Virus record (IMG/VR): IMGVR_UViG_3300044946_000220
Location: 38,035 to 102,034 of that record
DNA from: a virus
Direction: 5' to 3' (one strand)
DNA: 64,000 bases
Part shown: piece after piece, positions 4,827-22,568 of the stretch
Numbering within the stretch: the stretch's first letter is position 1
Layout of the letters: each line of letters begins with the position of its first letter
Notes under the pieces: model-generated
Database searches by the model: none
Told to the model about the DNA's origin: nothing
What the model saw: only the letters and a program-made list of their open reading frames with translations
Made by a program: the position numbers and the translations under genes

Positions 4827-5818
4827 CCTCCGCCCTCGCCCGCCTTCCGCCGAATCAACCGCTTGCAATCGTTGACCTCATCCCACGCGCCGAGGCCTAC
4901 GCGCTGGACAGCAAAGCGTCCAACACGAGGCGAGCCTACCGCGCGGCGTGGCTGCGCTTCTCAGCCTGGTGCGCCTCGGCTGGACTGGACGCCCTGCCTG
5001 CGAATCCAGCCACATTGGCGGTATATTTGGCGGGACTGGCCGAATCCGGCCTGAAGGTAGCGACCATCGAGCTAGCCGTGGCTGCTATCGCACATGCGCA
5101 TCACCGCGCCGACGTCCCTTCGCCCCACAGGTGAGCCCGTGTAACCGAGACCATGGCTGGCATACGCCGGGCCCTCGGGTGCGCGCCAACCGTCAAGGCG
5201 CCGCTCATGGCCAGCTCGTTACGGCTCATGTGCGCTACGCAATCCGGCGCAAAGACTCATGGATCGCACGAATGTAAAAACCTACTGTATGTTCGTGACA
5301 GGGCGCTGCTTTTGCTCGGCTGGGCTGGAGCCTTCCGTCGCAGCGAGCTTGTAGCGCTAGACGTGCGTGACCTGGCGTTCACAGACGAAGGCCTCGAAGT
5401 GACCATACGTAAGAGCAAGACGGACCAGCAGCGCGTTGGGCGGAAGATAGGCATCCCGCTCAGCGCCTCTCCCAGCGTCTGCCCCGTCCAGGCTGTACGC
5501 GCATGGCTTGACCTCGCTGGAATCGCGTCAGGGCCCGTCCTACGCGCAGTAAACAGGCACGGCCAGGTGTCCTCCACGCGCCTGACGGGTCACTCGGTGG
5601 CCCTGATAGTGAAGGCTCACGCCAAACGACTCGGCTTGGACCCTACACTGTATGCCGGGCACTCCCTTCGGGCAGGCTTTGCCACCAGCGCCGCCAAGGC
5701 TGGCAAGAGCGAGGCGTCAATCGCCCTCCAAACGGGACACAAGTCCATGACAATGCTTCGCAAGTACGTTCGCAATGCCAGCCTGTTTGAGAACAATGCC
5801 GGGCGCGGCCTGTTGTGA
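4823..5818 (+). pseudogene. Tyrosine recombinase (integrase) interrupted by an in-frame TGA
   Basis: GTG 4823 opens a SAM-like core-binding domain (about 100 residues; SNTRRAYRAAWLRFSAWC) that ends at TGA 5132-5134. The same frame continues at once through VTETMAGIRRALG into a full catalytic domain to 5818. All catalytic positions are visible: Arg in FRRSELVAL, Lys in RKSKTDQQR, His-Arg in HSLRAG, His in TGHKS and Tyr in RKYVRN. Only one codon is wrong, so this is a recent nonsense mutation, a sequencing error or readthrough. A separate catalytic fragment could start at ATG 5153. Known role: strand exchange between phage and host attachment sites. Confidence 0.85.
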
Positions 5819-7498: not shown

Positions 7499-8218
7499 AT
7501 GGCGAAAAAGAAGGATGACGGCAGCATTGTCGGCGGGTTTATCCGCGAAGGACACGGGAGCGATCGCGGGAAGCCGCACATCGAGGTGGTGGCGGACGAG
7601 CTTCCATGGCCTGTACCGGCCCAGGTGGCGGCTCCAGCCCGTCCGATCGAGCGGCTGCCAGATGGCAAGCTAGCCAGTAGCGAGGCCGCCAAGGAACTCG
7701 GTAGGCTGGGCGGCGAGGCCAAGGCCCGCAGGGTGCGCATGGTGGACGCCCTTGGGCTGTCTAAGCTCGCCGAGAGCGCCGCATTCCTACCTTATCGCAC
7801 AGCGGCCGAGGAGTTCTCAAGGCACCATCTGGAAGAGTTGGCCGAGATGTCCGGTGGTGTGGTTGGGGCTGGGCCAAGCTCCATGGTTGCCAGCGCGGCG
7901 ATCCAATTGGGAGCCTCGCGCTTCCTCTTCGACAAGGGCAGCGAGGACGGCGACCCAGACCTGTTCGCTAGTGCCTCGCGCCTGGCCGACTCGTCTAGGC
8001 AGAATCTGCTGGCCGCGTATGCCCTCGCCGTACGTGCCGCCGAGTTGCGAAACAAGAGCAAGTCGAAGACGGTTGACTTCGACGCCCTCACCCGTCAAGC
8101 GGTGGCTGAAACTGAGGCTCGCCGGGAGTCTGAAAAGAAGGCGCGCCAGAAGGCGATAGACGCTGCCGATTCGGAAGACGAGTCTACGCGCCTTCGCGTA
8201 AGCGCAGGTGCGACATGA
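7499..8218 (+). CDS. Terminase small subunit (putative), 239 aa
   Basis: Lies directly upstream of and overlaps the large terminase (ATGA), which is the main reason for the call. The product is helical and charged. A segment LASSEAAKELGRLGGEAKARR near residue 60 resembles the N-terminal helix of other phage small terminases. A central region may form the oligomerisation core, and the tail is basic. Small terminases form rings that recognise the packaging site and load the large subunit. First gene after a 88-base gap with an inverted repeat and the CAATCGAAC motif. Confidence 0.65.
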   Translation: MAKKKDDGSIVGGFIREGHGSDRGKPHIEVVADELPWPVPAQVAAPARPIERLPDGKLASSEAAKELGRLGGEAKARRVRMVDALGLSKLAESAAFLPYRTAAEEFSRHHLEELAEMSGGVVGAGPSSMVASAAIQLGASRFLFDKGSEDGDPDLFASASRLADSSRQNLLAAYALAVRAAELRNKSKSKTVDFDALTRQAVAETEARRESEKKARQKAIDAADSEDESTRLRVSAGAT

Positions 8219-9771
8219 CCGCACTGTCGTTCCGTTCGTTTCTGGAATCCAAGCACTACTGCAACCTTGAGTTGTCTCCGCTCATCGGGGCCATTGCGGA
8301 CGCAGCCGACTCGATAACGCCGACAAGCATCGATGACCTCACCTGCCAGAGGCACTTTGGGTGTCCACTTTCCGGCCTGCCCGTCACGCGTAAGCGCACA
8401 ATCGCAGTGCGGGCCGGCGGTCGCGGCGGAAAGACATCACGACTCCTGGCTCCGAAGGCCATTCACTCTGCATGGACGGTTCCTCTGCCTACCCTCAATA
8501 AGGGTGAGGTGGCCTCCTCTATTCTAGTGGCTCCAGATCTCAAGCTGGCCAAGCAGACGCTGTCGTTCGTCATCGGGTACATAGAAGACTCTCCGATCCT
8601 TCGGCCGGCGCTGGTCAAAGACCCGACTCAGGACGCCTGCACGCTCCGGCGCCCAGACGGAAAGCTGGTTCGCATAGAGATTCTGGCTGCGTCTAAGGGC
8701 GGAAAGGCCTTGCGCGCCCGCACGCTTGTATTCGCTGGGATGGACGAGGCATGCTTCTTTTTTGACGAGCACTCCGGCGCGATAAATGACGCGGACATTT
8801 TCCGAGCCGTGGCCATGCGCGTCGTGCCAGGCGGACAGGTGTGGGTTGTAAGCACTCCGTGGCTTGCGAACACTGGAATCCTAGAGACATTCGTAGACAA
8901 GGATCTTGGCATCCACAAGCACGCGCTTGTATGTACTGCCGGGACTCGTGCGCTGAATCCTACTTGGGATCCTACTGGCGAGATCGAGTCCGTCATGCGC
9001 GAGCAGGATCCGGACGCCGCGCGAAGGGAGATAGACGGAGAACCGCTCGCTGGCGCTCTAACTACGTTTTTCGATTGGAAGAGCGTTGACGACGCCGTAG
9101 ATCGGACTATGTCTTTGCCTCGCACCGCGTTGCCTGGGGAAGAGATTACGGCGGGCGGTGACTTCGCTTTCACGTCTGACTCCTCGGCCATGGTGGTGGT
9201 GCATCGCGACCATGAGAAGTACCGTGTGGCGGACATACTGGAGCTTCGGCCTCAGTCCGACAAGCCGCTGAAGCCGTCGGAAGTTGTGAGTACGTACGCC
9301 GAGCGAATGATGCGTCACGGCGGGTTGACGCGCATCACGGCCGACGGCCATTACAAGGAGACGATTCAGGAGCACCTGAACAACGCGGACATGTCGTTGA
9401 AGCTTGCTCCGCCGGGTAGCGAGGGTGTGGCCGAAACGTATCAAAAGGCCAGATCACTTTTCAGGGAGGGCAAGGTTGTATTGCCAGACAATGCTAGGCT
9501 GATAGCCCAGATCAAGTCCATCAACTGGAAGGCTAATCCAGGCGGTAGCATTTCAATAAAGAAGCCGCACGACAGGAATGGAGGCCACTGTGACATCTGC
9601 GACGCTATGGTACTAGCGTTGTGGGAGGCATGCGGGCTTGCCGTGCCGTTGCCCAGGCCAAAGGTAGGCACAGCGGAATACTTCAAGCTGGAGGAGGAGC
9701 GGATGATTGAGTCGCTCGAAGCCAAGCTTAGCGCCAGCAAGGGCGGCGAGTGGTGGGAGCAGTACAAGTGA
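8215..9771 (+). CDS. terL: Terminase large subunit, 518 aa
   Basis: DNA-packaging motor ATPase and headful/end-cutting nuclease. The Walker A is GGRGGKTS near residue 64 and the Walker B-type strand is LVFAGMDEA near residue 180 with its acidic pair. The C-terminal RNase H-like nuclease shows GGDFAF, then ITADGHY and CDICDAMV, supplying the expected three acidic residues. Length is normal for the family. ATG 8215 overlaps the small subunit by 4 bases. After packaging begins the enzyme docks on the portal encoded about 15 kb downstream; the enzymes placed between terminase and portal are unusual. Confidence 0.95.
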   Translation: MTALSFRSFLESKHYCNLELSPLIGAIADAADSITPTSIDDLTCQRHFGCPLSGLPVTRKRTIAVRAGGRGGKTSRLLAPKAIHSAWTVPLPTLNKGEVASSILVAPDLKLAKQTLSFVIGYIEDSPILRPALVKDPTQDACTLRRPDGKLVRIEILAASKGGKALRARTLVFAGMDEACFFFDEHSGAINDADIFRAVAMRVVPGGQVWVVSTPWLANTGILETFVDKDLGIHKHALVCTAGTRALNPTWDPTGEIESVMREQDPDAARREIDGEPLAGALTTFFDWKSVDDAVDRTMSLPRTALPGEEITAGGDFAFTSDSSAMVVVHRDHEKYRVADILELRPQSDKPLKPSEVVSTYAERMMRHGGLTRITADGHYKETIQEHLNNADMSLKLAPPGSEGVAETYQKARSLFREGKVVLPDNARLIAQIKSINWKANPGGSISIKKPHDRNGGHCDICDAMVLALWEACGLAVPLPRPKVGTAEYFKLEEERMIESLEAKLSASKGGEWWEQYK

Positions 9772-10415
9772 AACTCGTCCTTATATCCGACACCCACGAG
9801 CAGCACCGCAAGCTCAAGACCCTTCCGTCCGCAGACGTCATCATCCACGCCGGAGACTTCACGTACCGTGGCGAACTGAAAAAGGTAGCCGACTTCGCCG
9901 ACTGGCTCTCGCACCAACCGGCCGCCGTGAAGATCGTCATCGCTGGCAACCATGACCTGAGCTTCGAGGACGTGCGCTACGAAGCCGCCCGTCACGAACT
10001 GCAGTCCCGCGGCATCGACTACCTCGAAGGCGGCTCACTCGAAACGGGTGGCCTCAAGTTTTACGGAGCGCCTTGGCAGCCTGAGTTCTGCCAGTGGGCG
10101 TTCAACGTTCCGCGCGACTCCGAAGCCATCGCAGCGAAGTGGGCCGCCATTCCAGACGACGTTGACGTGTTGATCACTCACGGGCCGCCCAGCGGCATCC
10201 TCGACTTGTGCAGCAACGGACATGTCGGGTGCTTGCGACTCCGCGAGCGCGTTGGCGAGTTGAAACAGCTGAAGCTTCACGTGTTCGGACACGTGCATGA
10301 GGGGGCTGGAATACGCATGCCAGCCAACGGACGCAGGTTTCCAATGTTCGTAAACGCTTCCCAGTTGGACGGACAGTACCGGCACGTCCATGAACCAATC
10401 GAAGTAGATCTGTAG
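9768..10415 (+). CDS. Metallophosphoesterase, Mpped/239AB-like, 215 aa
   Basis: GTG 9768 overlaps the terL stop. All metal-binding motifs of calcineurin-like phosphoesterases are present in order: SDTHEQH, HAGDFT, GNHDLS, THGPPSG and FGHVHEG. Size and motif spacing match the compact Mpped1/2-like branch, whose members act on cyclic nucleotides and phosphodiesters. It is followed after four bases by the Thg1-like gene, so a role in trimming RNA ends (for example 2',3'-cyclic phosphates) is attractive but not shown. Confidence 0.85.
   Translation: MKLVLISDTHEQHRKLKTLPSADVIIHAGDFTYRGELKKVADFADWLSHQPAAVKIVIAGNHDLSFEDVRYEAARHELQSRGIDYLEGGSLETGGLKFYGAPWQPEFCQWAFNVPRDSEAIAAKWAAIPDDVDVLITHGPPSGILDLCSNGHVGCLRLRERVGELKQLKLHVFGHVHEGAGIRMPANGRRFPMFVNASQLDGQYRHVHEPIEVDL
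10396..10404 (+). promoter_or_regulatory. CAATCGAAG motif before the Thg1-like gene
   Basis: CAATCGAAG inside the end of the phosphoesterase gene, 15 bases before ATG 10420, which also has an AGGA ribosome site. Weaker member of the motif set. Confidence 0.25.
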
Positions 10416-10419
10416 GACC

Positions 10420-11262
10420 ATGAGCGGATCAGACAAGACAGCGTTAGGCGACCGCATGAAGGCATACGAAGACGCCTACCGCGTCTACCTGCCGAGGCGT
10501 GTGCCCATCCTTCTGCGCGTAGACGGCAAGGCTTTCCACACCCTCACGAAACATTGCGAGCGCCCGTGGTACGATCGCCTGTGTGCAGCCATGGACGCGG
10601 TGGCCCTTGCGTTGTGCGAAGAGATCCAAGGCGCACAGCTTGCCTACGTTCAGAGTGACGAGGTTTCCGTACTCATCCACGGCTACAGAACAATCACAAG
10701 CGAGCCTTGGCTGAACAATGGCCTTCAGAAGATTGTCAGCGTGTCGGCCAGCGTGGCTACGGCGGCGTTCAACGATGCGTACAGGTCGTCCGCCGTCAGG
10801 TGGCTTGTCCCTGCCGGCACAGATCTGGATGTGATGGACGGCAACATTGGTATCATTCGGTACGTGGGGCCGAACTGCGTGCCAGAGTTGGCGCCAACGA
10901 AGTCCGCACACTTCGACTCGCGCGCATTCATGATGCCGGAAGACGAGGTTGCCAACTACTTCCTATGGCGCCAGCGCGACGCTGAGCGCAACTCGATACA
11001 GATGCTGGCGCGGGCGCACTTTAGCCACACCGAATGCCACAAGAAGTCGTGCGTCGATCTGCAAGATATGCTGCACACGAAGGGTGTCAACTGGAACGAC
11101 TGTCCCACTGTGCACAAGCGCGGCAGGTGCGCCGTGCGCGCCGATTTTGAACGAGACGGCACCGTGCGCAGCGGATGGGTGATAGACAAGGAGATCCCGA
11201 TGTTCGGGCAGGATCGCGCGTACGTCGAACGCCACGTGAACGTTCACAAGGAGGCTGCGTGA
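10420..11262 (+). CDS. thg1: tRNA-His guanylyltransferase-like (Thg1/TLP) 3'-5' polymerase, 280 aa
   Basis: Adds nucleotides to the 5' end of tRNA in the reverse (3'-5') direction. The catalytic carboxylates are visible in LLRVDGKAFHTLTK near residue 33 and YVQSDEVSVLI near residue 72, and the family-typical FDSRAF and YFLWRQRDAERNS lie around residues 170-195. Full length for the family. Bacterial and phage Thg1-like proteins commonly repair 5'-truncated tRNAs rather than only adding G-1. Neighbours include a phosphoesterase and Pnkp-type kinase and phosphatase, which supports an RNA-repair role. Confidence 0.93.
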   Translation: MSGSDKTALGDRMKAYEDAYRVYLPRRVPILLRVDGKAFHTLTKHCERPWYDRLCAAMDAVALALCEEIQGAQLAYVQSDEVSVLIHGYRTITSEPWLNNGLQKIVSVSASVATAAFNDAYRSSAVRWLVPAGTDLDVMDGNIGIIRYVGPNCVPELAPTKSAHFDSRAFMMPEDEVANYFLWRQRDAERNSIQMLARAHFSHTECHKKSCVDLQDMLHTKGVNWNDCPTVHKRGRCAVRADFERDGTVRSGWVIDKEIPMFGQDRAYVERHVNVHKEAA

Positions 11263-11516
11263 GCCTCGACATTGAGCCCGGCACACTTTCCGAGGACGAG
11301 TTCCAGACGCTCATCCGGCACCTAGACGCCTTCCCTGCCGCAGAAACGTGCCCCGTATGCTCTTTCACCGAATGGGACGTCCCCGCGATGAAGGAGCACC
11401 CCGTGTACGTGGAGGCTCGCGAAAAGCGTATGACTGGTACGCTGCTCGTGTCGCTAGTGTGCTCCACGTGTGCGTACGTTAGGCAGTTTGCGTGGAGGGG
11501 GGTTTGCCGTGAGTGA
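11259..11516 (+). CDS. Zinc-ribbon protein, 85 aa
   Basis: GTG 11259 overlaps the Thg1-like stop, preceded by AAGGAGG. An acidic helical N-terminus is followed by CPVCSF and CSTCAY, two CxxC pairs about 40 residues apart, forming a zinc ribbon. It overlaps the resolvase gene by 8 bases. May be a nucleic-acid-binding partner of one of its neighbours; no direct evidence. Confidence 0.7.
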   Translation: MSLDIEPGTLSEDEFQTLIRHLDAFPAAETCPVCSFTEWDVPAMKEHPVYVEAREKRMTGTLLVSLVCSTCAYVRQFAWRGVCRE

Positions 11517-11880
11517 CGTCGTCTTTGTGTCCGTACCAATTCGCACGGTGTCCGAGGCCAACATTCGCGTTCACTGGGCTGTGCGGGCCAAACGCGTCAA
11601 GGCGCAGCGGCAGGCCGTAGCCATGACGCTGAGTGCGCGCCGCAAACATGTCCGCCAGCCTCCGTATACCGTGACGCTGTGCCGTGTTGCCCCCAGCAAG
11701 GGGCTTGACGGGGACAACCTATGCAGCTCACTCAAGGCGTCCAGGGATGCGGTAGCCGAAGTGCTGGGCATCGACGACGGGGACTCGCGCATCACATGGC
11801 GGTACCTGCAACGCCGAGGCAAACCGAAAGAGTACGCCGTGGAGATAACCGTCGAGAGCCAATCGAACCCTAGTACATGA
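11509..11880 (+). CDS. rusA: RusA-family Holliday junction resolvase, 123 aa
   Basis: GTG 11509. RusA-type dimeric endonucleases resolve four-way DNA junctions with an Asp cluster. Here KGLDGDNLCSSLKASRDAV and GIDDGDSRI give the expected DxDNL...D and DD-x-x-I signatures, and the size is typical. Probably resolves branched replicating DNA before packaging. Overlaps neighbours on both sides. Confidence 0.88.
   Translation: MSDVVFVSVPIRTVSEANIRVHWAVRAKRVKAQRQAVAMTLSARRKHVRQPPYTVTLCRVAPSKGLDGDNLCSSLKASRDAVAEVLGIDDGDSRITWRYLQRRGKPKEYAVEITVESQSNPST
11860..11868 (+). promoter_or_regulatory. CAATCGAAC start-associated motif (gene at 11877)
   Basis: CAATCGAAC, exactly 8 bases before ATG 11877, in a place where no Shine-Dalgarno sequence is seen. 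Confidence 0.4.
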
Positions 11881-12122
11881 GCCTTGACCAACTCATTCCG
11901 TGGCGAGTCAGTCCGCAGGTGCTTGCCGACTGGTGCGCCTACCAGATTCAGCACAACGGCAAGGCGGCGTCCTACTGCTCGGCGATACTCCGCATGATCG
12001 CGCACAAGAAGTGGCCGGTCGCCACGAAGGACGCGTACGGAACGGCGTGCGACTTGGGCAGCGAGTTGGGCGAAACGCTTGGGGAGACGGTGGGTGTTCC
12101 GATCGTATGGGACGAGAACTGA
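11877..12122 (+). CDS. Unknown protein, 81 aa
   Basis: ATG 11877 overlaps the resolvase stop. Helical, with a central ASYCSAILRMIAHKKWPVA and an acidic C-terminus (SELGETLGETVG). No membrane segment. No family recognised. The next gene starts 16 bases before its end. Confidence 0.6.
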   Translation: MSLDQLIPWRVSPQVLADWCAYQIQHNGKAASYCSAILRMIAHKKWPVATKDAYGTACDLGSELGETLGETVGVPIVWDEN

Positions 12123-12451
12123 TCGATGCGCTGGACAAGCTTCTCAAGCTGTACGACGACGCTTACGCGCGAGGTATCGACATTGCCATTGCAGAGGCGT
12201 GCGACGACGCAACGGGCTGGAAGATCCGGCAACTGTTTCGCGAGGAAGACGCGCGCTACGGCAAGTGCTGGCCGGAGATGCTTGGTAGTCCGGCGTGGCA
12301 GGTGGAGCTTTCGGCCGGACGGCTTGCGGTAATTCTACGACTGCGGAGACTGAAGAAGCGACTATCCAATGAGCAACGTAAACAAGCGAAAACGAGCAAC
12401 ACTCCCTGTGCTGACGGCGAAGCAAGCGGAGGAGCTGCTGCTGTACTTTGA
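12107..12451 (+). CDS. Unknown helical protein, 114 aa
   Basis: ATG 12107. Acidic, helical N-terminal part (RELIDALDKLLKLYDDAY, then IAIAEACDDATGWKIRQLF) and a basic end. It overlaps the next gene by 83 bases, more than usual here, so either the tail is non-essential or the downstream gene starts later. Function unknown. Confidence 0.55.
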   Translation: MGRELIDALDKLLKLYDDAYARGIDIAIAEACDDATGWKIRQLFREEDARYGKCWPEMLGSPAWQVELSAGRLAVILRLRRLKKRLSNEQRKQAKTSNTPCADGEASGGAAAVL

Positions 12452-12743
12452 CGGCAACCAGCCTTCGGAGCCAGGGGCCGAGTCAACGCACGGCGCTGTG
12501 GTGAAGTGGCTAGCGCGCGGGCAGTTGGAGGCTCCGGACATGCTGTCTTCGTCAGAAGACGAGATGCTTGAGTACCTGGATGCCAAGCGAGAGTGGGACA
12601 TGGTGGAGGCGAAGGTAGAGAAATGCTCAGACGCAACCCTAGGCGTTCTTGCAGCGTGGTTCGCGGCAAAAGAGGTGGATCGTCACCGAGTCGCAGACGA
12701 CGAGGTCTTGGCGGCGGCGTGCAAGGAGTACGCAGCAACATGA
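12369..12743 (+). CDS. Unknown acidic protein, 124 aa
   Basis: ATG 12369. Begins with a basic MSNVNKRKR then turns acidic and helical (LTAKQAEELLLYFDG, SEDEMLEYLDAKREWDMVE). Coupled to the kinase gene by an ATGA overlap. No recognised family. Confidence 0.6.
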   Translation: MSNVNKRKRATLPVLTAKQAEELLLYFDGNQPSEPGAESTHGAVVKWLARGQLEAPDMLSSSEDEMLEYLDAKREWDMVEAKVEKCSDATLGVLAAWFAAKEVDRHRVADDEVLAAACKEYAAT

Positions 12744-13195
12744 ACGTCATCGTCTTGAGTGGGTGCAGCGGGAGTGGGAAGTCCACATACGCCAAGAAGC
12801 TGCTGGAAGACGCCAACGGCCGCGCCACGTGCGTTAGTGCAGACCACTATTTTGAGCGTGGCGGGTACTATGATTTCAAGTCCGATGAGTTGCCACAGGC
12901 CCACGGCTACTGCTTCCGCCGGTTCATCAACGCCCTTCGCGACGGCAACGCCGGTGTGCTGGACACGATCATCATTGACAACACAAACCAGTCTGCGGCG
13001 AACATTTCGCCGTACTTCCTCGGCGCGCAAGCCTTCGGCTGGACGTCGGAGTTGGTGACGGTGCTGTGCGACGTTGAGGTGGCCGCCGCGCGCAACAAGC
13101 ACGGGGTTCCGCCGGAGAAGGTGAGACAGCAGGCCGCGCGAATTGCAAAGCGGCAGGTCCCGAAGACGTGGAAGCAAAGGACGGTGGAACTGTGA
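12740..13195 (+). CDS. P-loop polynucleotide kinase-like protein, 151 aa
   Basis: ATG 12740. Begins MNVIVLSGCSGSGKST, a textbook Walker A. It continues with the SADHYFERGGYYDF and AHGYCFRRFINAL pattern and IIDNTN, which characterise the PNKP/N4BP2-type kinase family that phosphorylates 5'-OH ends of nucleic acid. It is short and lacks a fused phosphatase; a Pnkp-type phosphatase is encoded separately 1.2 kb downstream. It likely prepares broken RNA or DNA 5' ends; the substrate is inferred. Confidence 0.8.
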   Translation: MNVIVLSGCSGSGKSTYAKKLLEDANGRATCVSADHYFERGGYYDFKSDELPQAHGYCFRRFINALRDGNAGVLDTIIIDNTNQSAANISPYFLGAQAFGWTSELVTVLCDVEVAAARNKHGVPPEKVRQQAARIAKRQVPKTWKQRTVEL

Positions 13196-14289
13196 CATTG
13201 GACATGAGTGTGTTTGGTCGAGAGCTTGGCCGTATTCTGAACGTGCCGAAGATGGCGGCCGAGGGGCATCCGCTGCTTGAGCGCGTGATGCGGAATGAAC
13301 AGTTTTACGGTAACACCCATGTGTCGCCATGCACCGACGGTCTGCCGTTGGGCAGAAGCGTCACATACACGAGCGTCCACGCGCACAAGCAGCCTCAGAT
13401 CAACTGGCTGACGCATCGCCTGAAGGACTACGAGCGCGTGGTGCTGGACTCATATCCGGAGCGCGCAATTGCGGACTGCAAGTTCGCCGTGAGATGCCTT
13501 GGCGATCGGCTGTCGCGGGCCCTGTACACGACCACCAAGTCCAAGGGTTTTGACGGAACGTTCACGACTGACAACGTGGTGGATCCGCTGAGCGACTGGG
13601 TGCCTCCGTATGCGCCGGGGAAAGGCGACTGTTGGCGCGGTGTAGATCGTACGACAGATCCCGCGCGTCTCGCTGGGCAACGACTGAACGCATCCGGCGC
13701 TGTGGCGTCAGAGGCCCTCATCCTAGCCGACCAGCTTGGCGTGCGCGAAGGGTCCGATGAAGACGAACCGTTGTACGTGAACCCGATCACGCACTGTCGC
13801 ATCCCCAAGTCGGACCGACGCGCCTCCATGGTGCTGGACTATTCGTGCCCAGAGGACACGATCTGGCGGCTGCCGGACGGATGTCTGGAGATTCTGAGCG
13901 CTTGGCACGCGCCGCAACTGCTGGACTGGGATAGTAGGCCCATTGTGCGGCGAGATGACGGCAAGATGGAGGTGCGACTGGGGTTCTACGGAAACACCGT
14001 TATGAAGAATGTGGGTAAGGTGGTACGCATTATGGGTTTGAGCCTACCGGAGGTGAAGCCCAGTGCGACGTGGGTCATCGGCAGCGGCAGACCGTTCAGC
14101 GAGTTGCCCACGCTGAAGGAGCCGGCGTCCGACGTGTGCGAATCCACAATTCTGTCCTACGGGAAGATGCCTGCGCCAGTGGTGACGCCGCCCGCAATCG
14201 CCGAGAAGGCGTGCCCCAATCCTACGTGCGGGAAGATGAATGACGTGGGCACGACTAAGTGCTGGTTCTGTACTGGGAGCTTGACGTGA
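13192..14289 (+). CDS. Unknown protein with C-terminal zinc ribbon, 365 aa
   Basis: GTG 13192 overlaps the kinase stop. It sits between the kinase and phosphatase genes, so an RNA-repair partner was considered, but no nucleotidyltransferase KxDG motif with the rest of a ligase signature is seen (KGFDG occurs once, without motif IV). The last 35 residues carry CPNPTC and CWFC, a short zinc ribbon, after a Pro-rich linker. The main domain is mixed alpha-beta and unrecognised. Confidence 0.65.
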   Translation: MTLDMSVFGRELGRILNVPKMAAEGHPLLERVMRNEQFYGNTHVSPCTDGLPLGRSVTYTSVHAHKQPQINWLTHRLKDYERVVLDSYPERAIADCKFAVRCLGDRLSRALYTTTKSKGFDGTFTTDNVVDPLSDWVPPYAPGKGDCWRGVDRTTDPARLAGQRLNASGAVASEALILADQLGVREGSDEDEPLYVNPITHCRIPKSDRRASMVLDYSCPEDTIWRLPDGCLEILSAWHAPQLLDWDSRPIVRRDDGKMEVRLGFYGNTVMKNVGKVVRIMGLSLPEVKPSATWVIGSGRPFSELPTLKEPASDVCESTILSYGKMPAPVVTPPAIAEKACPNPTCGKMNDVGTTKCWFCTGSLT

Positions 14290-14453
14290 AGCAACCCAAG
14301 AAACTGCGCCGCAAGGCATTGGCTCGCGCACGCCGCAAGCTGGCCGCACTCCAGTCGCGTAACGCGAGGCCGCGCACGATCAAGCGACAGAAGGATCGTT
14401 GGGCGAAGCGAACGGCGGCACAATTCATGTACGACAGGCTGCAAGATGGCTGA
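14286..14453 (+). CDS. Very basic peptide, 55 aa
   Basis: GTG 14286 overlaps the preceding TGA. About two fifths of residues are Lys or Arg (KQPKKLRRKALARARRK), with no acidic cluster. Ribosomal-protein-like composition suggests RNA or DNA binding. It overlaps the phosphatase gene by 8 bases and could be its nucleic-acid tether, which is inference. Confidence 0.6.
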   Translation: MKQPKKLRRKALARARRKLAALQSRNARPRTIKRQKDRWAKRTAAQFMYDRLQDG

Positions 14454-15078
14454 TCTGCCCAAAGCGATCATCTGCGACCTCGACGGCAGTCTCGCCTTGA
14501 TTGGGCCGAGAAACCCTTACGACGCCGCCAAGTGCGAGGTAGATACGCTGAACTGGCCTGTAGCCGCTACCGTGCACGCCCTTCGCAACGCAGGCTACCG
14601 TGTCATATTCATGTCTGGCCGCAAGGAGTGCGATCGAAAGCCAACCGTTGACTGGATCCGCAAGAACATGCTCAGCGGCGTGTGCGGTTGGGTTGAATGC
14701 GTAGACTACGAGCTTTTCATGCGCGAAACGGACGATAACCGTCCTGACAATGTGGTGAAAGTCGAGCTTTTTGAGAAGTACGTGAAGCCTAGGTACGACG
14801 TGCTTCTGACGTTAGACGATCGCAAAAAAGTGGTCCGCGCGTGGAGGGACGCACTGGGGCTCGTATGCCTGCAGGTCAACGACGGTCCGCTAGAGAAAAC
14901 GGACTGCATTCATTGCGGAGGAAGCGGCACCAGTAAGGCCCTTGTAGGCGATGAGCAAGAAGCCGCGTTGGCGCTATGCGATCTGGTGGGTAAGCCGTCC
15001 TGGGAGCCGCACCTGCGTGAAGCCGAGTATGCAATCAAGTCGATTATCAAGGCTGTGAGCAAAGGGAGAGCGAGATGA
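14446..15078 (+). CDS. Pnkp-type polynucleotide 3'-phosphatase (HAD family), 210 aa
   Basis: ATG 14446. Motif by motif this follows the C-terminal phosphatase of T4 polynucleotide kinase: ICDLDGSLA (nucleophile), NPYDAAKCEVDTLN, VIFMSGR, a DNRPDNVVKVELF segment, and LTLDDRKKVVRAWR. The last 60 residues add CIHCGGSG and a helical tail not found in T4. It probably removes 3'-phosphates or 2',3'-cyclic phosphates from broken RNA, complementing the separate kinase. Acts in the cytoplasm. Confidence 0.85.
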   Translation: MADLPKAIICDLDGSLALIGPRNPYDAAKCEVDTLNWPVAATVHALRNAGYRVIFMSGRKECDRKPTVDWIRKNMLSGVCGWVECVDYELFMRETDDNRPDNVVKVELFEKYVKPRYDVLLTLDDRKKVVRAWRDALGLVCLQVNDGPLEKTDCIHCGGSGTSKALVGDEQEAALALCDLVGKPSWEPHLREAEYAIKSIIKAVSKGRAR

Positions 15079-15794
15079 TTTATGCACTGTGTTTGTGTCT
15101 TACGGCGGCCCTGATCGTCAGTCGAGTGCTTGCGCGACTCGGGCGCCTTAGACTAGCGGATGAAAACGAACTGCAGGCAAGCCGGTTACAGGTGGCCAAC
15201 AATGTTATCAACGCCGAGCGAATGCTACACAAAGAGTTGCGCGCCGAGCGAGACGGTTTGCGCGCCGAGCTTGCCGCAAAGGCCAATACGGTTGCGGTCG
15301 CCCCAAAGTGGGAGACGTGGCACAAGAGCGGCAATTGGCCGTCGTTTCGCGAGCGAGAAGAAGCTGGAGATCCGTGGGTGTCCACCCTAAATCAGTTGCG
15401 AAAAGAGCTGAGCGCCCTACAAAACCACGAGCGAACTATCTCCGATTTGCGAACGAAACAAAACGCTCTCGTGACGGAGATGCACTACGTGTCTGGTGCC
15501 ATGTTGAAGTCAGAGAAGGTGGCCGAGGAGTTGCGCTTCAGGTTGAAGCGCAGGGATGTGCGAATCAGGGTGCTGGAGGCCGAGGCTGTGCTTTACGGGC
15601 GCAAGCCGCCTGTGGCAAGGTTCGCCACACCCAAGGGCTGGGATGCGTGGGACGACAAGAAGCAAAATAAGTGGCTGCTTGACAACATGAAGCCGCTACT
15701 TGCGGCTCATCCGCCCTATCCGCTCGGCCGCCCACCGGAAGACGACAAGTCTCAATCGAAACCCAGTACAAGGAAGGCAAAGGCCAAGAAATGA
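15075..15794 (+). CDS. Membrane-anchored coiled-coil protein, 239 aa
   Basis: ATG 15075 overlaps the phosphatase stop. Residues 3-18 are hydrophobic (an N-terminal membrane anchor), followed by a long heptad-like region about 28-185 rich in Glu/Arg/Leu. Near the C-terminus is GWDAWDDKKQNKWL, strikingly like WPDKKQNAWL at the end of the scaffold protein at 27862. A basic tail ends the protein. Possibly an assembly or membrane-associated factor; function unknown. Confidence 0.65.
   Translation: MIYALCLCLTAALIVSRVLARLGRLRLADENELQASRLQVANNVINAERMLHKELRAERDGLRAELAAKANTVAVAPKWETWHKSGNWPSFREREEAGDPWVSTLNQLRKELSALQNHERTISDLRTKQNALVTEMHYVSGAMLKSEKVAEELRFRLKRRDVRIRVLEAEAVLYGRKPPVARFATPKGWDAWDDKKQNKWLLDNMKPLLAAHPPYPLGRPPEDDKSQSKPSTRKAKAKK
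15753..15761 (+). promoter_or_regulatory. CAATCGAAA motif upstream of 15791
   Basis: CAATCGAAA followed by CCCAGTACA, very similar to the site before 11877, but here 29 bases before the ATG and followed by a normal AAGGAAGG ribosome site. Confidence 0.25.
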
Positions 15795-16099
15795 CGATCA
15801 ATAACAACAGCAACACCAATCGCAACGTCGACGTGAACAACGACACCCTCGCTTCGGCGATGCGGACGATTATCAACGATCGGCTGACGATTGATACGCA
15901 TACGCCGACCAACAACAACGTGAATGCCACCCAGAACGACGACTTCGAGCCCACGCACGTCATTGTCAGCGGCTTCGGCGTCACGATCAGCGAGTTTCTG
16001 GATCCGGACGAGTACACCAATAACGCGATCTACGGCGAGACGCTGGTGCGCATGGTGGCTGCGTACAACTCGGCGGACAAGGTGCTGACGGGAACGTGA
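15791..16099 (+). CDS. Asn-rich protein, 102 aa
   Basis: ATG 15791. The first 25 residues are nearly all Asn/Thr/Asp/Arg (TINNNSNTNRNVDVNND), then a beta-rich core (PTHVIVSGFGVTISEFL) and an acidic helical end. Low-complexity Asn stretches often mark disordered linkers in virion or assembly proteins. No Cys or membrane segment. Function unknown. Confidence 0.6.
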   Translation: MTINNNSNTNRNVDVNNDTLASAMRTIINDRLTIDTHTPTNNNVNATQNDDFEPTHVIVSGFGVTISEFLDPDEYTNNAIYGETLVRMVAAYNSADKVLTGT

Positions 16100-16386
16100 T
16101 CGGGGACGGCGCCATCTTCGCCGAGGAGCTTGGTAGGCACTTGAAAATGTCTACCAAGCGCGCGCGAAGGCTGATGTGGGAAGTGTTTGCCAGATACGGC
16201 GAGACGGTTGTTTCCGCCGTGCCTGGCAAGCGCGGGTTCAGGCCTTGGACCACCTGGGCGGCGTGGGAAAGCAGGTTGCCTTCCCTTAGGTCTGGCGGAA
16301 AGGACATTTTTGACAGAGTTTCTACACTGGAGACTGAGATCGCTAGGCTAAAGGCCCACTTAGGGCCACAAGGTGGAGGAATCTAA
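16096..16386 (+). CDS. Putative small DNA-binding protein with coiled-coil tail, 96 aa
   Basis: GTG 16096 overlaps the previous TGA. FAEELGRHLKMSTKRARRLM looks like a helix-turn-helix, followed by a basic loop (PGKRGFRPW). The last 25 residues (FDRVSTLETEIARLKAHLG) form a clear heptad coiled coil for dimerisation. It lies just before a long non-coding region and could regulate it; this is inference. Confidence 0.55.
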   Translation: MIGDGAIFAEELGRHLKMSTKRARRLMWEVFARYGETVVSAVPGKRGFRPWTTWAAWESRLPSLRSGGKDIFDRVSTLETEIARLKAHLGPQGGGI

Positions 16387-16857
16387 CCTTATAGGTAGGA
16401 GCATGTCGCAACAGGAACTGACTGGATCTCGCGCTTCTGCGCCTCCCAGCCTGTGCACGAAATGTGCGCCGCCCCAAACGGGACATCGGCGCGTCTTGCT
16501 CAGCTTTTCGACTAGTGCCAGCCGCGTTACGCTTGAGCCGGGCATCGACCCTCGCTCTGACGCTTTGTCCAACGCGGCGCGCACTAACCGGCCCGGGAAT
16601 GGGGGAACACCCCAGATGGGCCATTTTGCGGTCGCTACCCGTCTCGCTAGGTGCACGCGCTGGTCGCGTCCACTGGTACCCTGCGTGCGGTCGGCCGTTG
16701 CCGGTTATGTTCGGGTAGCTCCCGACTCCGGCGTGCAGTCGGCGGCGGTAAAGGGCCGCGCGACGTCCCCCAGTTCGACTCTGGGCGTCTGCACCGGGCG
16801 GCCACGGCCAGGACGATGGGCGCTTGCCTGTGGCGGGCAGCGCAGCGGTTGCGGGCG
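16387..16857. other. Probable non-coding region with structured-RNA features
   Basis: No convincing gene: the longest rightward frame (ATG 16403 to 16861) is Ser/Arg/Pro/Thr/Cys-rich with few acidic residues and looks non-coding, though it would end in an ATGA overlap. The DNA holds several stems: GGGG-GAACA-CCCC near 16603, TCGGG-TAGCT-CCCGA at 16711-16725, TGCACGC/GCGTGCA (16652 and 16731), and a tRNA-like fold at 16733-16794. A tRNA-Asn gene follows 300 bases on. Likely carries small RNA or degenerate tRNA genes. Confidence 0.4.
16733..16794 (+). ncRNA. tRNA-like three-stem fold lacking a normal D arm
   Basis: GTGCAG pairs with CTGCAC as an outer stem. Inside are a GCGGC/GCCGC-type hairpin and a perfect T-arm look-alike, CCCAG-TTCGACT-CTGGG, at 16769-16785. 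The piece is only 62 bases and no anticodon arm can be assigned, so it is at best a degenerate or mimic tRNA. Confidence 0.25.
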
Positions 16858-17112
16858 ATGAGGCGGCACTACGTCTTTTCGGCGATTGTGGCCGTCCTGG
16901 CCATCGCCTTCACTGTTTTCTCGTGTGGCGGCATCCTTGCGACACCATACTGCCTTGCGGGGCACCACTACTGCGGCGGAATCGCCGAAGGCGCCGCTGT
17001 TTGCTGCCCCAACACTGCGGTGTGCGGGACCGATGTAAATCGGTGTCCACGGGGCGAATGTTGTCCCCTGGCCGACGCCCCTCCCGGCACCAAGCCGGAC
17101 GGCGACTTTTGA
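16858..17112 (+). CDS. Small Cys-rich lipoprotein, 84 aa
   Basis: ATG 16858. A basic start (MRRHYVF) leads into a hydrophobic segment ending TVFSCGG, a plausible lipobox, so the mature protein may be lipid-anchored at Cys 23. The mature part has ten further Cys in 60 residues (YCLAGHHYCGG, VCCPNTAVC, RCPRGECCP), suggesting a disulfide knot outside the cytoplasm. Resembles other secreted Cys-rich products in this phage (32879-34151, 57002). Possibly a surface or superinfection-exclusion factor. Confidence 0.65.
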   Translation: MRRHYVFSAIVAVLAIAFTVFSCGGILATPYCLAGHHYCGGIAEGAAVCCPNTAVCGTDVNRCPRGECCPLADAPPGTKPDGDF

Positions 17113-17168
17113 TCACGCAGGCCGTTCCCGTGACCCTCCTCCACGCGTGGGACGGCCGAACTCTTCGA

Positions 17169-17241
17169 TGCGAGGTAGCACAATTGGCAGTGCTTTCGTC
17201 TGTTACACGAAATTATACAGGTCCGAATCCTGTCTTCGCAG
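17169..17241 (+). tRNA. tRNA-Asn (GTT)
   Basis: A complete cloverleaf: acceptor TGCGAGG/CTTCGCA (one G-T pair), D arm GCAC-AATTGGCA-GTGC, anticodon arm TTCGT-CTGTTAC-ACGAA with anticodon GTT, a 4-base variable loop, and T arm ACAGG-TCCGAAT-CCTGT. The discriminator base is G and no CCA is encoded. The T loop starts TCC instead of the usual TTC. Could supply Asn decoding or replace a host tRNA cleaved by anti-phage nucleases. Confidence 0.93.
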
Positions 17242-17251
17242 CCGACATCGC

Positions 17252-17260
17252 CAATCGATA
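17252..17260 (+). promoter_or_regulatory. CAATCGATA start-associated motif (gene at 17269)
   Basis: CAATCGATA exactly 8 bases before ATG 17269, just after the tRNA. No Shine-Dalgarno sequence is visible here. Confidence 0.4.
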
Positions 17261-17268
17261 CAAGTAGT

Positions 17269-17724
17269 ATGCCTACCCGCAATCAGCCGATCTACCAGCA
17301 ACTCGTTGACGCCGTCATTGAGCGAGACGCGTCCTGCGGCGTGCAGTCGCTGCCTAGCGCGCGCGATCTGGCGATCAAAAGCTGCCTTGCGTCTACGGAC
17401 TTCTCGCTGTACTTTGCCTCTTCGGCTGCGGCCAAGTTTGGGGGCGACTACCGAGCTTCGTGCGACGGCCTCAACGTAACTGGCCTTCCTGGCCTTCCTG
17501 TTTCGCGCCACGGCCTTGAGCTGACCGCCCTTGTGCTGGCCGACGTGCGCGCACGCGAGGGCAACGGCTCGCCCGACGGTGGCCACCCTACGTTCAACAT
17601 CGACGACTACCTGACTGATCAACCGCACCTGGTGCCTGATCGTTCTAACTGGCGCAACCCAGACCCAGGCGGCGGCGCTGGCGCGGCACGCCCAGTTGAG
17701 TACGAGTACCGGAAGGCGGCATAG
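17269..17724 (+). CDS. Unknown protein, 151 aa
   Basis: ATG 17269, the first gene after the tRNA. Mixed composition with a helical start, a Gly/Asp-rich middle (EGNGSPDGGHPTFNIDDYL) and a Pro/Gly/Ala-rich tail that looks disordered. Its stop TAG overlaps the GTG of the methyltransferase. No family recognised. Confidence 0.6.
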   Translation: MPTRNQPIYQQLVDAVIERDASCGVQSLPSARDLAIKSCLASTDFSLYFASSAAAKFGGDYRASCDGLNVTGLPGLPVSRHGLELTALVLADVRAREGNGSPDGGHPTFNIDDYLTDQPHLVPDRSNWRNPDPGGGAGAARPVEYEYRKAA

Positions 17725-18359
17725 TGGTTACGGCCGCCAAGCTACCGCATGGGTTCCGGTGCCACAGTTCCCTCGTGCACGGCCTAGAGCTTGTCTTCGG
17801 CGGCCTATACGAAGTGGACATGGAGCCGCACCCCGGCACCGTGCTGGACATCGGCGGCAACGCTGGCGCATTCACGATGTGGGCCCTTGGCCGCTGGCCG
17901 GGCGCGAGGATCACAACGTATGAGCCATCGGCAGCCACGCTGAGGAACCTGTACGAAAACGTAAAACCGGAGACGCGCAACGGCTTAGTCACAATCGTTG
18001 GCAAGGCCGTCACATCATTGCCGGGGCCGTACGCGTTTCTTCACGACGGACGCCAGAACACCGGTGAACGGTCTCTGTATGACATGGGCGACCAGCTTGT
18101 CACTGGCGAAAGTGTTGCCGTGGAGCACCCCGAGGACTTGCCGCAAGCGGACTTCCTCAAGCTGGATTGCGAAGGCGCTGAGCTGGACATACTGACCCAC
18201 TACCCGCTGCTGGACAAGTGCCGCGCCGTCGCGTTGGAGTGGCACATCCCCGAGCAGTTGCCGGACATCATCACGACGCTCGCGAAGGCTGGACTGCGCA
18301 TCTGCGCGCAAGACCGCCAAGAGCGTATGTTGAAATTCAAGCACCACACCGAACTGTGA
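17724..18359 (+). CDS. FkbM-family methyltransferase, 211 aa
   Basis: GTG 17724. SAM-dependent O-methyltransferase fold: motif I VLDIGGNAGAFTMWA (residues 42-56), the acidic ribose-binding YEPSAATLRNLYENV, and the FkbM hallmark DFLKLDCEGAELDIL near residue 147. FkbM enzymes methylate hydroxyls of sugars or polyketides. Here it begins a block with an acetyltransferase and a double glycosyltransferase, so the likely substrate is a glycan on virion protein, DNA or host surface; the exact target is unknown. Confidence 0.88.
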   Translation: MVTAAKLPHGFRCHSSLVHGLELVFGGLYEVDMEPHPGTVLDIGGNAGAFTMWALGRWPGARITTYEPSAATLRNLYENVKPETRNGLVTIVGKAVTSLPGPYAFLHDGRQNTGERSLYDMGDQLVTGESVAVEHPEDLPQADFLKLDCEGAELDILTHYPLLDKCRAVALEWHIPEQLPDIITTLAKAGLRICAQDRQERMLKFKHHTEL

Positions 18360-19425: not shown

Positions 19426-19643
19426 TGGAAGCCGATGCGCCGTGCCTTAGCTGCATGTCTCTGACTGAGAAGATCAAGAGGCTGGAGCACAACCTGAAGC
19501 GCACGCAGGCCGACTTGGCGCACCAGAAGCACCTCAACAGCGGGCTTCGCGAAGAGCTTACCGAGAATCTGCCCGAGCCGGACACGGTTGCCGAGCCTGT
19601 GGATCCCACGCGCCGCTTCGTTCCGCGTCCGCCACTTTTCTAG
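19425..19643 (+). CDS. Short coiled-coil protein, 72 aa
   Basis: ATG 19425 overlaps the previous TAA. After a CLSC pair, residues 13-50 form heptads (LTEKIKRLEHNLKRTQADLAH), then an acidic Pro-rich tail. Possibly a dimeric linker or chaperone for the upstream structural proteins. Function unknown. Confidence 0.6.
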   Translation: MEADAPCLSCMSLTEKIKRLEHNLKRTQADLAHQKHLNSGLREELTENLPEPDTVAEPVDPTRRFVPRPPLF

Positions 19644-19648
19644 ACACT

Positions 19649-20074
19649 TTGACTCAACTCGACACACTTGAAGGCGTGCTGAAGATCCGCCCCGGGCAAC
19701 CTGGCGATCGAAGCTATGTGCTTAGGAGCTGGATCTCCAGCTTCAACAAGAGCCCACTGGCCAGAGCCCTGGGCGAGAACTACTACAAGGTGTACTCGCC
19801 CGTTGTTGAGCGCCAGTACGCGCGCAGCCAGATCCGCATTGCTTGCATGTCGGACGAGCCTGGGGCAATCGTTGGCTTCGCCGTGCTGGAGCCAGAGCGT
19901 TCCACGGTACATTTCGTGTGCGTTCGCGAGAAGTGGAGACGCAAAGGCGTTGCCTCACTTCTGCTTGCTAACGAGCTAAAGCAAACCGGCATTCAGTACA
20001 CGCACTCCGCGCCACCGTACATTCGCGCGCCTCAGGTGTGGTCGTACATGCCACTATCAGGAGCATTCAGTTGA
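19649..20074 (+). CDS. GNAT-family acetyltransferase, 141 aa
   Basis: TTG 19649 is the only start that keeps the N-terminal strand. IVGFAVLEPE and then VHFVCVREKWRRKGVASLLL form the beta4-beta5 and acetyl-CoA pyrophosphate loop (R-x-x-G-x-A) of GNAT enzymes. Such enzymes transfer acetyl from acetyl-CoA to amines of sugars or proteins. It directly precedes the glycosyltransferase fusion, hinting at sugar modification. Confidence 0.75.
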   Translation: MTQLDTLEGVLKIRPGQPGDRSYVLRSWISSFNKSPLARALGENYYKVYSPVVERQYARSQIRIACMSDEPGAIVGFAVLEPERSTVHFVCVREKWRRKGVASLLLANELKQTGIQYTHSAPPYIRAPQVWSYMPLSGAFS

Positions 20075-20087
20075 CAGGAGCAACAGT

Positions 20088-22568
20088 TTGAACTGCAGCG
20101 AAGTCTACCCGAACCTTTGGATCGGCGCCCATCCGCAAACGCTTGGAGGCAGCGTCAGCGAGATCAAGGAGGCCGGCTTTACGCTGCACCTCGATTGTCG
20201 CGGAGAATGTCCGCCAGTAGCCACGGCGCGCACTGAGATTCAGACGGCGTATCTGCCGCTTTGGGACGACGGCTCAACGCCGCTTACGCAGGACGTGATT
20301 GCGCGCGTCCGCCAGGCTGGGAAAAACATAGCCGCATGCGTGCGGGCTGGGCGCAAGACGCTGATCACCTGCATGGGCGGCTTCAACCGAAGTGCGCTTG
20401 TGGCGGCGTTCGCCTTGCACGAGCTTACCGGGAAGTCTGGCGCTGAGGTGACGGAGATCATCCGCGAAGCGCGCGGGCTCCCTACGCCGGAACTTGTCAA
20501 GGCCGCTGGCATCACCCACGATCCGCCGCGCCGTGCACTGAACAATCCACAATTCGTGGCCGCAATCTTGGCGCTAGAGACGAAGACTTACGACGCCGAC
20601 TGCCTCATCTACGACGCGGTTGGTGGGGCGTACACCGCGGCTGACGCCGACGGAAGCTTCGCGCTGGGCGGTAGCGAGCTTGAGGTGACGCAGATTGCGC
20701 GTGCCCTCGCCGCTAAGGGGCACAAGGTTACGGTTGCCACCGGCGCCACTGAGGCGAAGGAAATCGAAGGCGTCCGGTACGTCCCGCTCAAGCAAGCCGT
20801 GGGACAGCGCGTCAAGACTCTGTACGTCCAGCGCCACAGCCCCATGCCACAAGTGGATGCGGATCACACGATCATCCGCTCCACGGACATGAATGAGGCC
20901 GGCTATCGCACCCATGACGCGATTCTGGCAAGCGGCAACGCCGAGCTTCTGTGTGTGAGCAAGTGGCAGGCCGGCCAATTCCAGCATGCCATCCGCCGTG
21001 CCATCGTACCGTCCCCGCTTGGCGCCATGCCGAAGGTCGACAAGGTGCCCGGGCGCTTCGTATTCGCGTCCTCGGCGGCCAAGGGTCTGGAGCCCACGCT
21101 GGGCGTCTGGATGCACATGAAGGCCGCCTACGGCCAGGAGCTGGCGTCCGCAAAGCTGCTTGTCACGGCCCCCAGCTACAAGTTTGGCAGAGCCCCCACG
21201 CTAACGCAGTCCATGAAGGATGCGGGCGTTGAGTACGTGCCGGCCAAGTCGATGGCGCACTACCGCGAACTGATCGCCAGCGCCCGGGGTGTTTTCTACG
21301 CCTGCTGCTACCAGGAAACGGCGTGCATGATTGCCGCCATGTGCGAGCGAAGTCACACACGCTTCCACTTCTGGCCCATGACGGGCCTCGGCGGTGTGCC
21401 GGAGATGCTGACGAACAGTCGCCTCACCGCCGACAGTCAGGACAAGTTTGAGTCCGACTTTATGGCCGCCTGGCGTGAGCCGGACAGAGCCGAGTGGTAT
21501 GCCGCCGGCAAGCTGAAGGATCTCAGCGTGGACGCCGTGCTTCCGATCTGGGAGCACGCCCTCCATTTGGCGGATCACTCCGCGCACGAAGATAAACTGC
21601 CGCTTTACATTGCCGCAGACTCTATGGCGTCACGCCCCGGGATGCCACAACCGTTTATCGCCACGCCGGCCTACGGCGGCATGCTGACGATGCCGTACAC
21701 GACTTCGCTTGTGTCGCTCATGTGCGGCATGCAGAAGCTGGGGCTAGATCCAACCCTCCACCTTCTCGGCAACGAGTCGCTGATCACGCGCGCCCGCAAC
21801 AACTGCGTGGCAGACTTCCTCGCCTCCAGGTGCACGCACCTGTTTTTCATTGACTCTGACATTGGCTTCACGGCACAGCACGCCGTTGACATGATGACGT
21901 CCGGATTGGACGTTGTCTTCGGTGCGTACCCCAAGAAGTCCATCGAGTGGAACAACGTGCTTCGCGCGGCGCAGGAAGGCATCGCGAAGACGCCCGAAGA
22001 CTTGGCACAGTACATGGCCGGGTTCGCGCTGAACTTCACCGAGGACTCCGTCAAGACCGGCGAGTTCAAGGTGTTGGAGCGTGGCGGCCTGGCGTTCATG
22101 CCCGTCAAGGAAGCCTCCACCGGCTTCTGCTGCATTTCGCGCGCGGCGATTGAGCGCATGATTGAGGCGTATGGCAGCGAGCTTGAGTACGTCAGCGATT
22201 CCAACCTGGGATACGGCGAGAAGCGCTACGCCCTGTTTGATTGCCCCATCTGCCCAGAAGGCGACAGCGACGCGCCACTGATTGCGTTGCGCAAGGCAGC
22301 AAAGGCATACGCGATCAGTAGAGATGACGTCACCTCCAACGCCGTGCTGGATGCGGCAAGTGCGTTTGCGACGGCGACAGCTGCTGGCGCATCTCGCTAC
22401 TTATCAGAGGATTACGGATTCTCGCGTCGGTGGGCTAGCCTTGGCGGCGAAGTGTATGTCTACGTTGGGGCGGCGCTAACGCACACCGGTACGCACACCT
22501 TCTACGGCGACTTCCGAAAGATGTTCACCGCAAGTGTGGATGACGCCTCAACTTACACAGCTCCTTAG
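20088..22568 (+). CDS. Phosphatase - glycosyltransferase B - glycosyltransferase A fusion, 826 aa
   Basis: TTG 20088 with an AGGAG site 7 bases upstream. Three domains in one chain: residues 1-125, a dual-specificity phosphatase-like domain with the C-x5-R signature CMGGFNRSAL (the usual His before Cys is Thr); about 160-470, a GT-B type region (LGGSELEVTQIARALAAKGH, VVFASSAAKGLEPTLGVW-like core); about 515-826, a GT-A type region starting ATPAYGGM, with LITRARNNCVADFL and the acidic FFIDSDIGF, DxD-like. The substrate is unknown; a glycan on virion, DNA or lipid is inferred. I know of no standard family with this architecture. Confidence 0.8.
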   Translation: MNCSEVYPNLWIGAHPQTLGGSVSEIKEAGFTLHLDCRGECPPVATARTEIQTAYLPLWDDGSTPLTQDVIARVRQAGKNIAACVRAGRKTLITCMGGFNRSALVAAFALHELTGKSGAEVTEIIREARGLPTPELVKAAGITHDPPRRALNNPQFVAAILALETKTYDADCLIYDAVGGAYTAADADGSFALGGSELEVTQIARALAAKGHKVTVATGATEAKEIEGVRYVPLKQAVGQRVKTLYVQRHSPMPQVDADHTIIRSTDMNEAGYRTHDAILASGNAELLCVSKWQAGQFQHAIRRAIVPSPLGAMPKVDKVPGRFVFASSAAKGLEPTLGVWMHMKAAYGQELASAKLLVTAPSYKFGRAPTLTQSMKDAGVEYVPAKSMAHYRELIASARGVFYACCYQETACMIAAMCERSHTRFHFWPMTGLGGVPEMLTNSRLTADSQDKFESDFMAAWREPDRAEWYAAGKLKDLSVDAVLPIWEHALHLADHSAHEDKLPLYIAADSMASRPGMPQPFIATPAYGGMLTMPYTTSLVSLMCGMQKLGLDPTLHLLGNESLITRARNNCVADFLASRCTHLFFIDSDIGFTAQHAVDMMTSGLDVVFGAYPKKSIEWNNVLRAAQEGIAKTPEDLAQYMAGFALNFTEDSVKTGEFKVLERGGLAFMPVKEASTGFCCISRAAIERMIEAYGSELEYVSDSNLGYGEKRYALFDCPICPEGDSDAPLIALRKAAKAYAISRDDVTSNAVLDAASAFATATAAGASRYLSEDYGFSRRWASLGGEVYVYVGAALTHTGTHTFYGDFRKMFTASVDDASTYTAP

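Follow-up and report, generated by a model that had tools for sequence, protein, structure and literature searches.

Does a phage gene string that starts with the large terminase also hold the means to mend cut tRNAs? This question is raised by a 64-kb stretch of DNA (the window), which forms the last part (38035-102034) of the single 102,034-bp virus record IMGVR_UViG_3300044946_000220 from IMG/VR. A preliminary description of the window had proposed a compact RNA/tRNA-repair module, consisting of a Thg1-like polymerase, a phosphoesterase directly before it, a PNKP-type kinase, a T4 Pnkp-like 3'-phosphatase and a tRNA-Asn gene. Open reading frame (ORF) calls, family profiles and ARAGORN/Rfam place these five genes where that description had put them. 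Genes were also called on the preceding 38 kb of the same virus record, where two RNA ligases are encoded. The presence of these genes, their families and their intact catalytic motifs are established, as is the recurrence of the set in other phages. It is fairly probable that they make up a dispersed RNA-repair kit, which keeps tRNAs usable while the host cuts tRNAs to stop translation. The finding is thus a genuine and fairly full set of RNA-repair genes; searches for close sequenced relatives of this phage lineage gave none. The genes concerned are the following, with window coordinates unless the contig (the whole record) is named and protein lengths in amino acids (aa):

8215-9771, + strand: large terminase subunit (phrog_2, 2.6e-18), first gene of the string that holds the repair genes
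9768-10415, + strand: MPPED2-like calcineurin-family metallophosphoesterase, 215 aa (PF00149, 2.8e-15; PDB MPPED2 3rl4, 3.9e-39)
10420-11262, + strand: Thg1-like protein (TLP), a predicted 3'-5' nucleotidyltransferase, 280 aa (PF04446, 5.9e-23; phrog_4717, 3.3e-83)
12740-13195, + strand: stand-alone P-loop kinase of the AAA_33/phrog_2071 type, 151 aa (AAA_33, 9.3e-14; phrog_2071, 2e-21)
13192-14289, + strand: 365-aa protein with no assigned family and a zinc-ribbon-like C-terminus (ORF call)
14446-15078, + strand: stand-alone PNKP-type HAD 3'-phosphatase, 210 aa (PF25109 HAD_PNKP, 1.1e-43)
17169-17243, + strand: tRNA-Asn(GUU) (ARAGORN; Rfam RF00005, 59.4 bits)
Contig 16996-18105, - strand: divergent T4-Rnl1-like RNA ligase (PF09511 (RNA_lig_T4_1), 1.7e-10; motif I KVDG)
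Contig 19518-20705, + strand: DRB0094/Rnl5-type RNA ligase (PF21189; PF09414, 4.2e-26; motif I KLHG)

The Thg1-like protein and the tRNA-Asn gene

The identification of a Thg1-like polymerase in the preliminary description is confirmed, as PF04446 scores over its curated cut-off (81.7 bits against 29.2), phrog_4717 matches as well and the catalytic DG, SDE and FDxRxF motifs are intact, reading VDGKAFH, QSDE and FDSRAF in an alignment with nine phage homologues. The best match in the PDB is the TLP of B. thuringiensis (BtTLP; 4kgk, 1.3e-69), while eukaryotic Thg1 proteins match far more weakly (3.7e-8 for C. albicans Thg1, others weaker still). The HINNLYN motif for recognition of the tRNA-His anticodon, which is described as specific to eukaryotes (PMC6471195, PMC3701042), is absent from the phage TLP; WRQRDAERNSIQ stands where WRQ.D.HINNLYN is expected. 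The preferred reaction of bacterial and archaeal TLPs is the templated repair of tRNAs truncated at the 5' end, for which they accept a broad range of tRNAs (PMC6471195, PMC3701042). Because BtTLP is the closest match, HINNLYN is absent and bacterial TLPs prefer 5'-truncated tRNAs, tRNA repair seems a more likely function of the phage TLP than tRNA-His maturation.

Alternatively, the TLP could work apart from the healing enzymes, in tRNA-His maturation or proofreading (G-1 addition) or in a general tidying of 5' ends, its neighbours being unrelated cargo. Indeed, tRNA-His guanylyltransferase is the usual annotation of phage Thg1 genes, the authors describing phage CBB connected its Thg1 to a tRNA gene of the phage (PMC5259590), BtTLP can stand in for yeast Thg1 (PMC6471195), and Pnkp and Rnl1 are absent from many Thg1 phages. 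Nevertheless, this explanation is unlikely, given that the TLP lacks HINNLYN and resembles the repair-type TLPs, that bacterial TLPs favor truncated substrates, and that Thg1 and repair genes lie close together in the unrelated phages D69 and KashFlow. Moreover, the virus record encodes no tRNA-His, its only tRNA being tRNA-Asn.

The tRNA-Asn gene, likewise part of the preliminary description, is recovered by both ARAGORN and Rfam. Its cloverleaf folds with -21.9 kcal/mol and carries G73, and the CCA end is not encoded. The T loop reads UCCGAAU, with a C where most tRNAs carry U55.

End-healing enzymes and RNA ligases

The likeness of the phosphatase to T4 Pnkp, noticed from the start, is borne out by its PF25109 score of 149 bits (cut-off 27.6) and by its closest PDB entries, which are Pnkp1 from a bacterial RNA-repair complex (4xrp, 8e-31) and T4 Pnkp (1ltq, 5.5e-23). 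Its HAD motifs DLDG and LDDR are intact. Kinase and phosphatase are separate genes here and not fused as in T4-type Pnkp; all eight HAD_PNKP proteins from other Thg1 phages lie in frames of 294-354 aa that also contain an AAA_33 kinase domain. That a PNKP-type phosphatase stands alone is probably no novelty as such, since phrog_415 has a profile of only 218 positions.

The kinase, with GCSGSGKST as its P-loop, matches phrog_505 (Pnk) at 7.7e-11 and is a candidate 5'-OH polynucleotide kinase. Against a hidden Markov model (HMM) of the Pnkp kinase domain built in this analysis it scores 22.9 bits. Of the earlier label 'PNKP-type P-loop kinase', the P-loop kinase stands as a member of AAA_33, while the resemblance to the Pnkp kinase domain is only distant.

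Two RNA ligases are encoded upstream of the window, so that the earlier statement that no ligase is visible holds for the window and not for the phage. The Rnl1-like ligase scores 41.6 bits with PF09511 (cut-off 28.3), has KVDG at residue 102 and is matched by T4 Rnl1 structures at about 1e-7; with 44 bits it stays below the 242-bit cut-off of the T4 RnlA equivalog. The DRB0094-type ligase combines an N-terminal OB domain with an RNA_ligase domain, passes TIGR02306 (153.7 bits against a cut-off of 151.15) and resembles structures of Naegleria RNA ligase (about 1e-13). At residues of about 149-186, between its OB and catalytic domains, it has a hydrophobic insert, AWLFAGAAVCFLFAIWPPLGLLFPIPLLVARYL. 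Its maximum 19-residue hydropathy is 2.03, against at most 1.43 in the phage homologue frames checked, none of which has the insert; the insert is possibly a membrane hairpin.

The 365-aa gene between kinase and phosphatase had been pointed out as the place to look for a ligase. This suggestion does not hold, as the protein matches no ligase model, contains no KxDG and is not hit by HMMs made from phage ligases; profile and PDB searches gave no family or structure match at all. Its one recognisable feature is the zinc-ribbon-like CPNPTCGKMND..CWFC at the C-terminus. No relatives were found in INPHARED phages or the genomes searched, and the one IMG/VR match is confined to the 27-residue zinc-ribbon-like tail. 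A tail of the form C.NPTCGKMND...CW.C is common to window 14205-14286 and to an otherwise unrelated protein (L010:7461-8087) of a 406-kb phage record; both records encode Thg1. Single-sequence structure predictions were unusable for this protein and for the kinase (predicted local distance difference test scores of 32 and 38, respectively).

As described earlier, the phosphoesterase directly precedes the Thg1-like gene and belongs to PF00149; its start overlaps the terminase stop (GTGA). The catalytic motifs SDTH, GD, GNHD and GHVH are intact and MPPED2 (3rl4) is the closest PDB entry. The protein also matches the predicted defence candidate family PDC-S10 of PADLOC (3e-76), and may therefore have a defence or counter-signalling job apart from RNA repair. 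A literature search found no mention of PDC-S10, and among the relative loci checked, none showed a homologue of the phosphoesterase adjoining Thg1. Its membership of the repair kit is among the least certain parts of the proposal.

A second alternative is that only the upstream ligases act on RNA, and that DNA ends or nucleotides are what the kinase, the phosphatase and the phosphoesterase work on, in packaging, recombination or counter-signalling. The direct coupling of the repair genes to the large terminase fits this explanation, as do the position of the kinase outside the classical T4 Pnkp subtype and the MPPED2 and PDC-S10 matches, according to which the phosphoesterase may degrade cyclic nucleotides. 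It is nonetheless unlikely: the phosphatase is closest to two Pnkp enzymes, one of them from an RNA-repair complex, Thg1 as an RNA enzyme shares the gene string with kinase and phosphatase, and both ligases belong to families that require 3'-OH and 5'-phosphate ends.

Recurrence of the gene set and proposed mechanism

Thg1 is present in 120 INPHARED phage records, and a phage Thg1 alone is therefore unremarkable. When repair families were searched in 31 other Thg1-phage records, HAD_PNKP was found in 8, Rnl1 in 14, RlaP over cut-off in 15 and RtcB in 5; PF09414 also matches cellular genomes and is hence less telling. Thg1, HAD_PNKP and Rnl1 occur together in six of the 31 records (IMG/VR record G001, Vibrio CoeS_P1, Xanthomonas XaC1, Pectobacterium CBB, Caulobacter CcrSC and Vibrio D69). 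The set thus recurs in unrelated phages, a co-occurrence that the preliminary description had named as a check on its reading. Vibrio phage D69 (OZ195729.1, 69707-81765) is the clearest independent case and a better model for the repair hypothesis than the window, with six repair genes on one strand within 12 kb (phosphoesterase at 69707, Pnkp 71110, Rnl1 73292, Thg1 75136, RlaP-type nucleotidyltransferase 77012, CCA enzyme 80491). In Mycobacterium phage KashFlow, Thg1 and Pnkp are 0.9 kb apart, in Stenotrophomonas phage RAS14 Thg1 and Rnl1 about 4 kb, and in Variovorax phage V45v66 about 6 kb separate Thg1 from a kinase that shares its family with the window kinase.

Of 22 records, 7 have a repair gene within 5 kb of Thg1, where random placement of Thg1 would give 2.6 (P = 0.009; P = 0.03 if CBB, an apparent relative of XaC1, is left out). 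This clustering is moderate evidence, as the 5-kb threshold had not been set beforehand and a size-matched control is lacking. Random-pattern sampling of IMG/VR, which yielded short contigs for the most part, did not serve as such a control.

Several points weigh against a repair kit. The ligases are about 27-31 kb away from the repair genes of the window, so that the single compact module first proposed is not upheld, and their surroundings are genes of an early or replication type, while the repair genes of the window come after the terminase. RtcB, RlaP and a CCA enzyme were searched for in the phage record and none was found. The kinase has no RDDxR-type motif; because SADHYF replaces the NRDDxR of T4-like Pnkp, it probably represents a different AAA_33 lineage and not half of a split Pnkp. 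The substrates of AAA_33 kinases vary, and DNA is also a possible substrate of Pnkp-type enzymes. At 3 kb, the clustering of Thg1 with repair genes shows no excess over random placement. Part of the co-occurrence may reflect only large genomes, since a size-matched set of phages without Thg1 is lacking. Finally, the many Thg1 phages without Pnkp and Rnl1 include Bacillus BSP38 and Eldridge, Staphylococcus PMBT8, Aeromonas 2L372D and Vibrio 1.170.O.

Still, the two RNA ligases, the repair-type TLP and the recurrence of the set in unrelated phages support the RNA/tRNA-repair reading of the preliminary description. From these, we infer that RNA is the substrate, that the enzymes cooperate and that their purpose is counter-defence. 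The HAD phosphatase would strip the 3' or 2',3'-cyclic phosphate from cut RNA ends and the P-loop kinase would phosphorylate the 5'-OH ends left by metal-independent RNases, after which the Rnl1-like and DRB0094-type ligases could reseal the healed anticodon breaks. Nucleotides lost from the 5' side of the acceptor would be rebuilt by the TLP, which would start from a 5'-phosphorylated end and copy the intact 3' acceptor strand, and the phage tRNA-Asn would provide one undamaged tRNA. That such a kit counters nucleases which cut tRNA near the 5' end or acceptor, as the preliminary description had it, is not supported, and acceptor-side 5' damage as the selected target is, again, among the least certain elements.

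A variant of this mechanism is that the TLP and the non-T4-type kinase, possibly with the phosphoesterase, carry out a ligase-independent resynthesis of 5' ends, apart from the repair of anticodon breaks and directed against an undescribed 5'-side tRNA nuclease. The kinase would prime the 5'-OH cut end, and the TLP would then rewrite the lost 5' strand. This variant is quite improbable; if true, the pathway would defeat a host nuclease, as yet undescribed, through which tRNAs lose their 5' side.

Gene context and comparison with known systems

The + strand genes from 8215, the large terminase, to 16386 run consecutively, mostly with short overlaps and otherwise with starts close to stops, and are therefore probably co-expressed. 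Searches with the terminase, the capsid protein and DnaB found no close relatives in IMG/VR or INPHARED, except one distant terminase. Elsewhere in the window, a tyrosine recombinase is spread over two ORFs, with the N-terminal domain at 4802-5134 and the catalytic domain at 5312-5818, which suggests a broken or split integrase. Further genes encode an FkbM-type methyltransferase (17724-18359), a GNAT acetyltransferase (19718-20074), an 826-aa protein with dual-specificity-phosphatase and weak glycosyltransferase matches (20088-22568) and a histidine phosphatase (24129-24656), and an upstream piece (L009:5482-6750) encodes a UDP-sugar dehydrogenase. They are a possible surface-modification or metabolic set.

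The kit described here is of a known kind, because both the link between Thg1, PNK and ligase and the counter-defence reading have been published (PMC2904730, PMC7824862); the phage is a new example. In the scheme published for T4 as well as for jumbo phages, tRNAs are cut by host effectors; a phosphatase and a kinase then turn the cut ends into 3'-OH and 5'-phosphate, which ATP-grasp ligases seal (PMC7824862). With the Pnkp-Rnl1 system of T4 the phage shares a HAD 3'-phosphatase of the same family, a P-loop kinase and a ligase of the Rnl1 family (PF09511). It differs in its separate kinase and phosphatase genes, the other AAA_33 subtype of the kinase and the divergence of its Rnl1, and adds a Thg1-like protein and a second ligase.

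Iyer et al. (2021, PMC7824862) have listed the whole repair kit, with a sporadic Thg1, for jumbo phages. That complement and the present phage have in common ATP-grasp RNA ligases, a PNK-HAD phosphatase, a kinase, a calcineurin-like phosphatase, Thg1 and phage tRNAs, and the idea of counter-defence is likewise shared. Unlike the jumbo-phage complement, the present one comes from a 102-kb record, which suggests that the kit extends beyond jumbo phages. It has a stand-alone phosphatase, an MPPED2-like enzyme adjoining Thg1 and a DRB0094-type ligase with a hydrophobic insert, whereas RlaP, RtcB and the CCA enzyme are missing from the genes found.

In bacterial neighbourhoods, Thg1 is linked to polynucleotide kinase and RNA ligase, and the kinase has been proposed to supply the 5'-phosphate substrate for Thg1 (Anantharaman, Iyer and Aravind, 2010, PMC2904730). 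The closeness of Thg1 to a P-loop kinase and the association with RNA ligase are found here as well, although in a phage setting behind the terminase and with ligases that are distant and not in the same operon. The cluster of D69 similarly brings phosphoesterase, Pnkp, Rnl1 and Thg1 together; there, Pnkp is fused, RlaP-type and CCA nucleotidyltransferases are also present, and the phosphoesterase has no detectable relationship to that of the window. With its TLP, kinase, phosphatase and two ligases, the present phage offers, together with D69, a concrete set of genes for asking whether TLPs repair tRNAs cut in defence.

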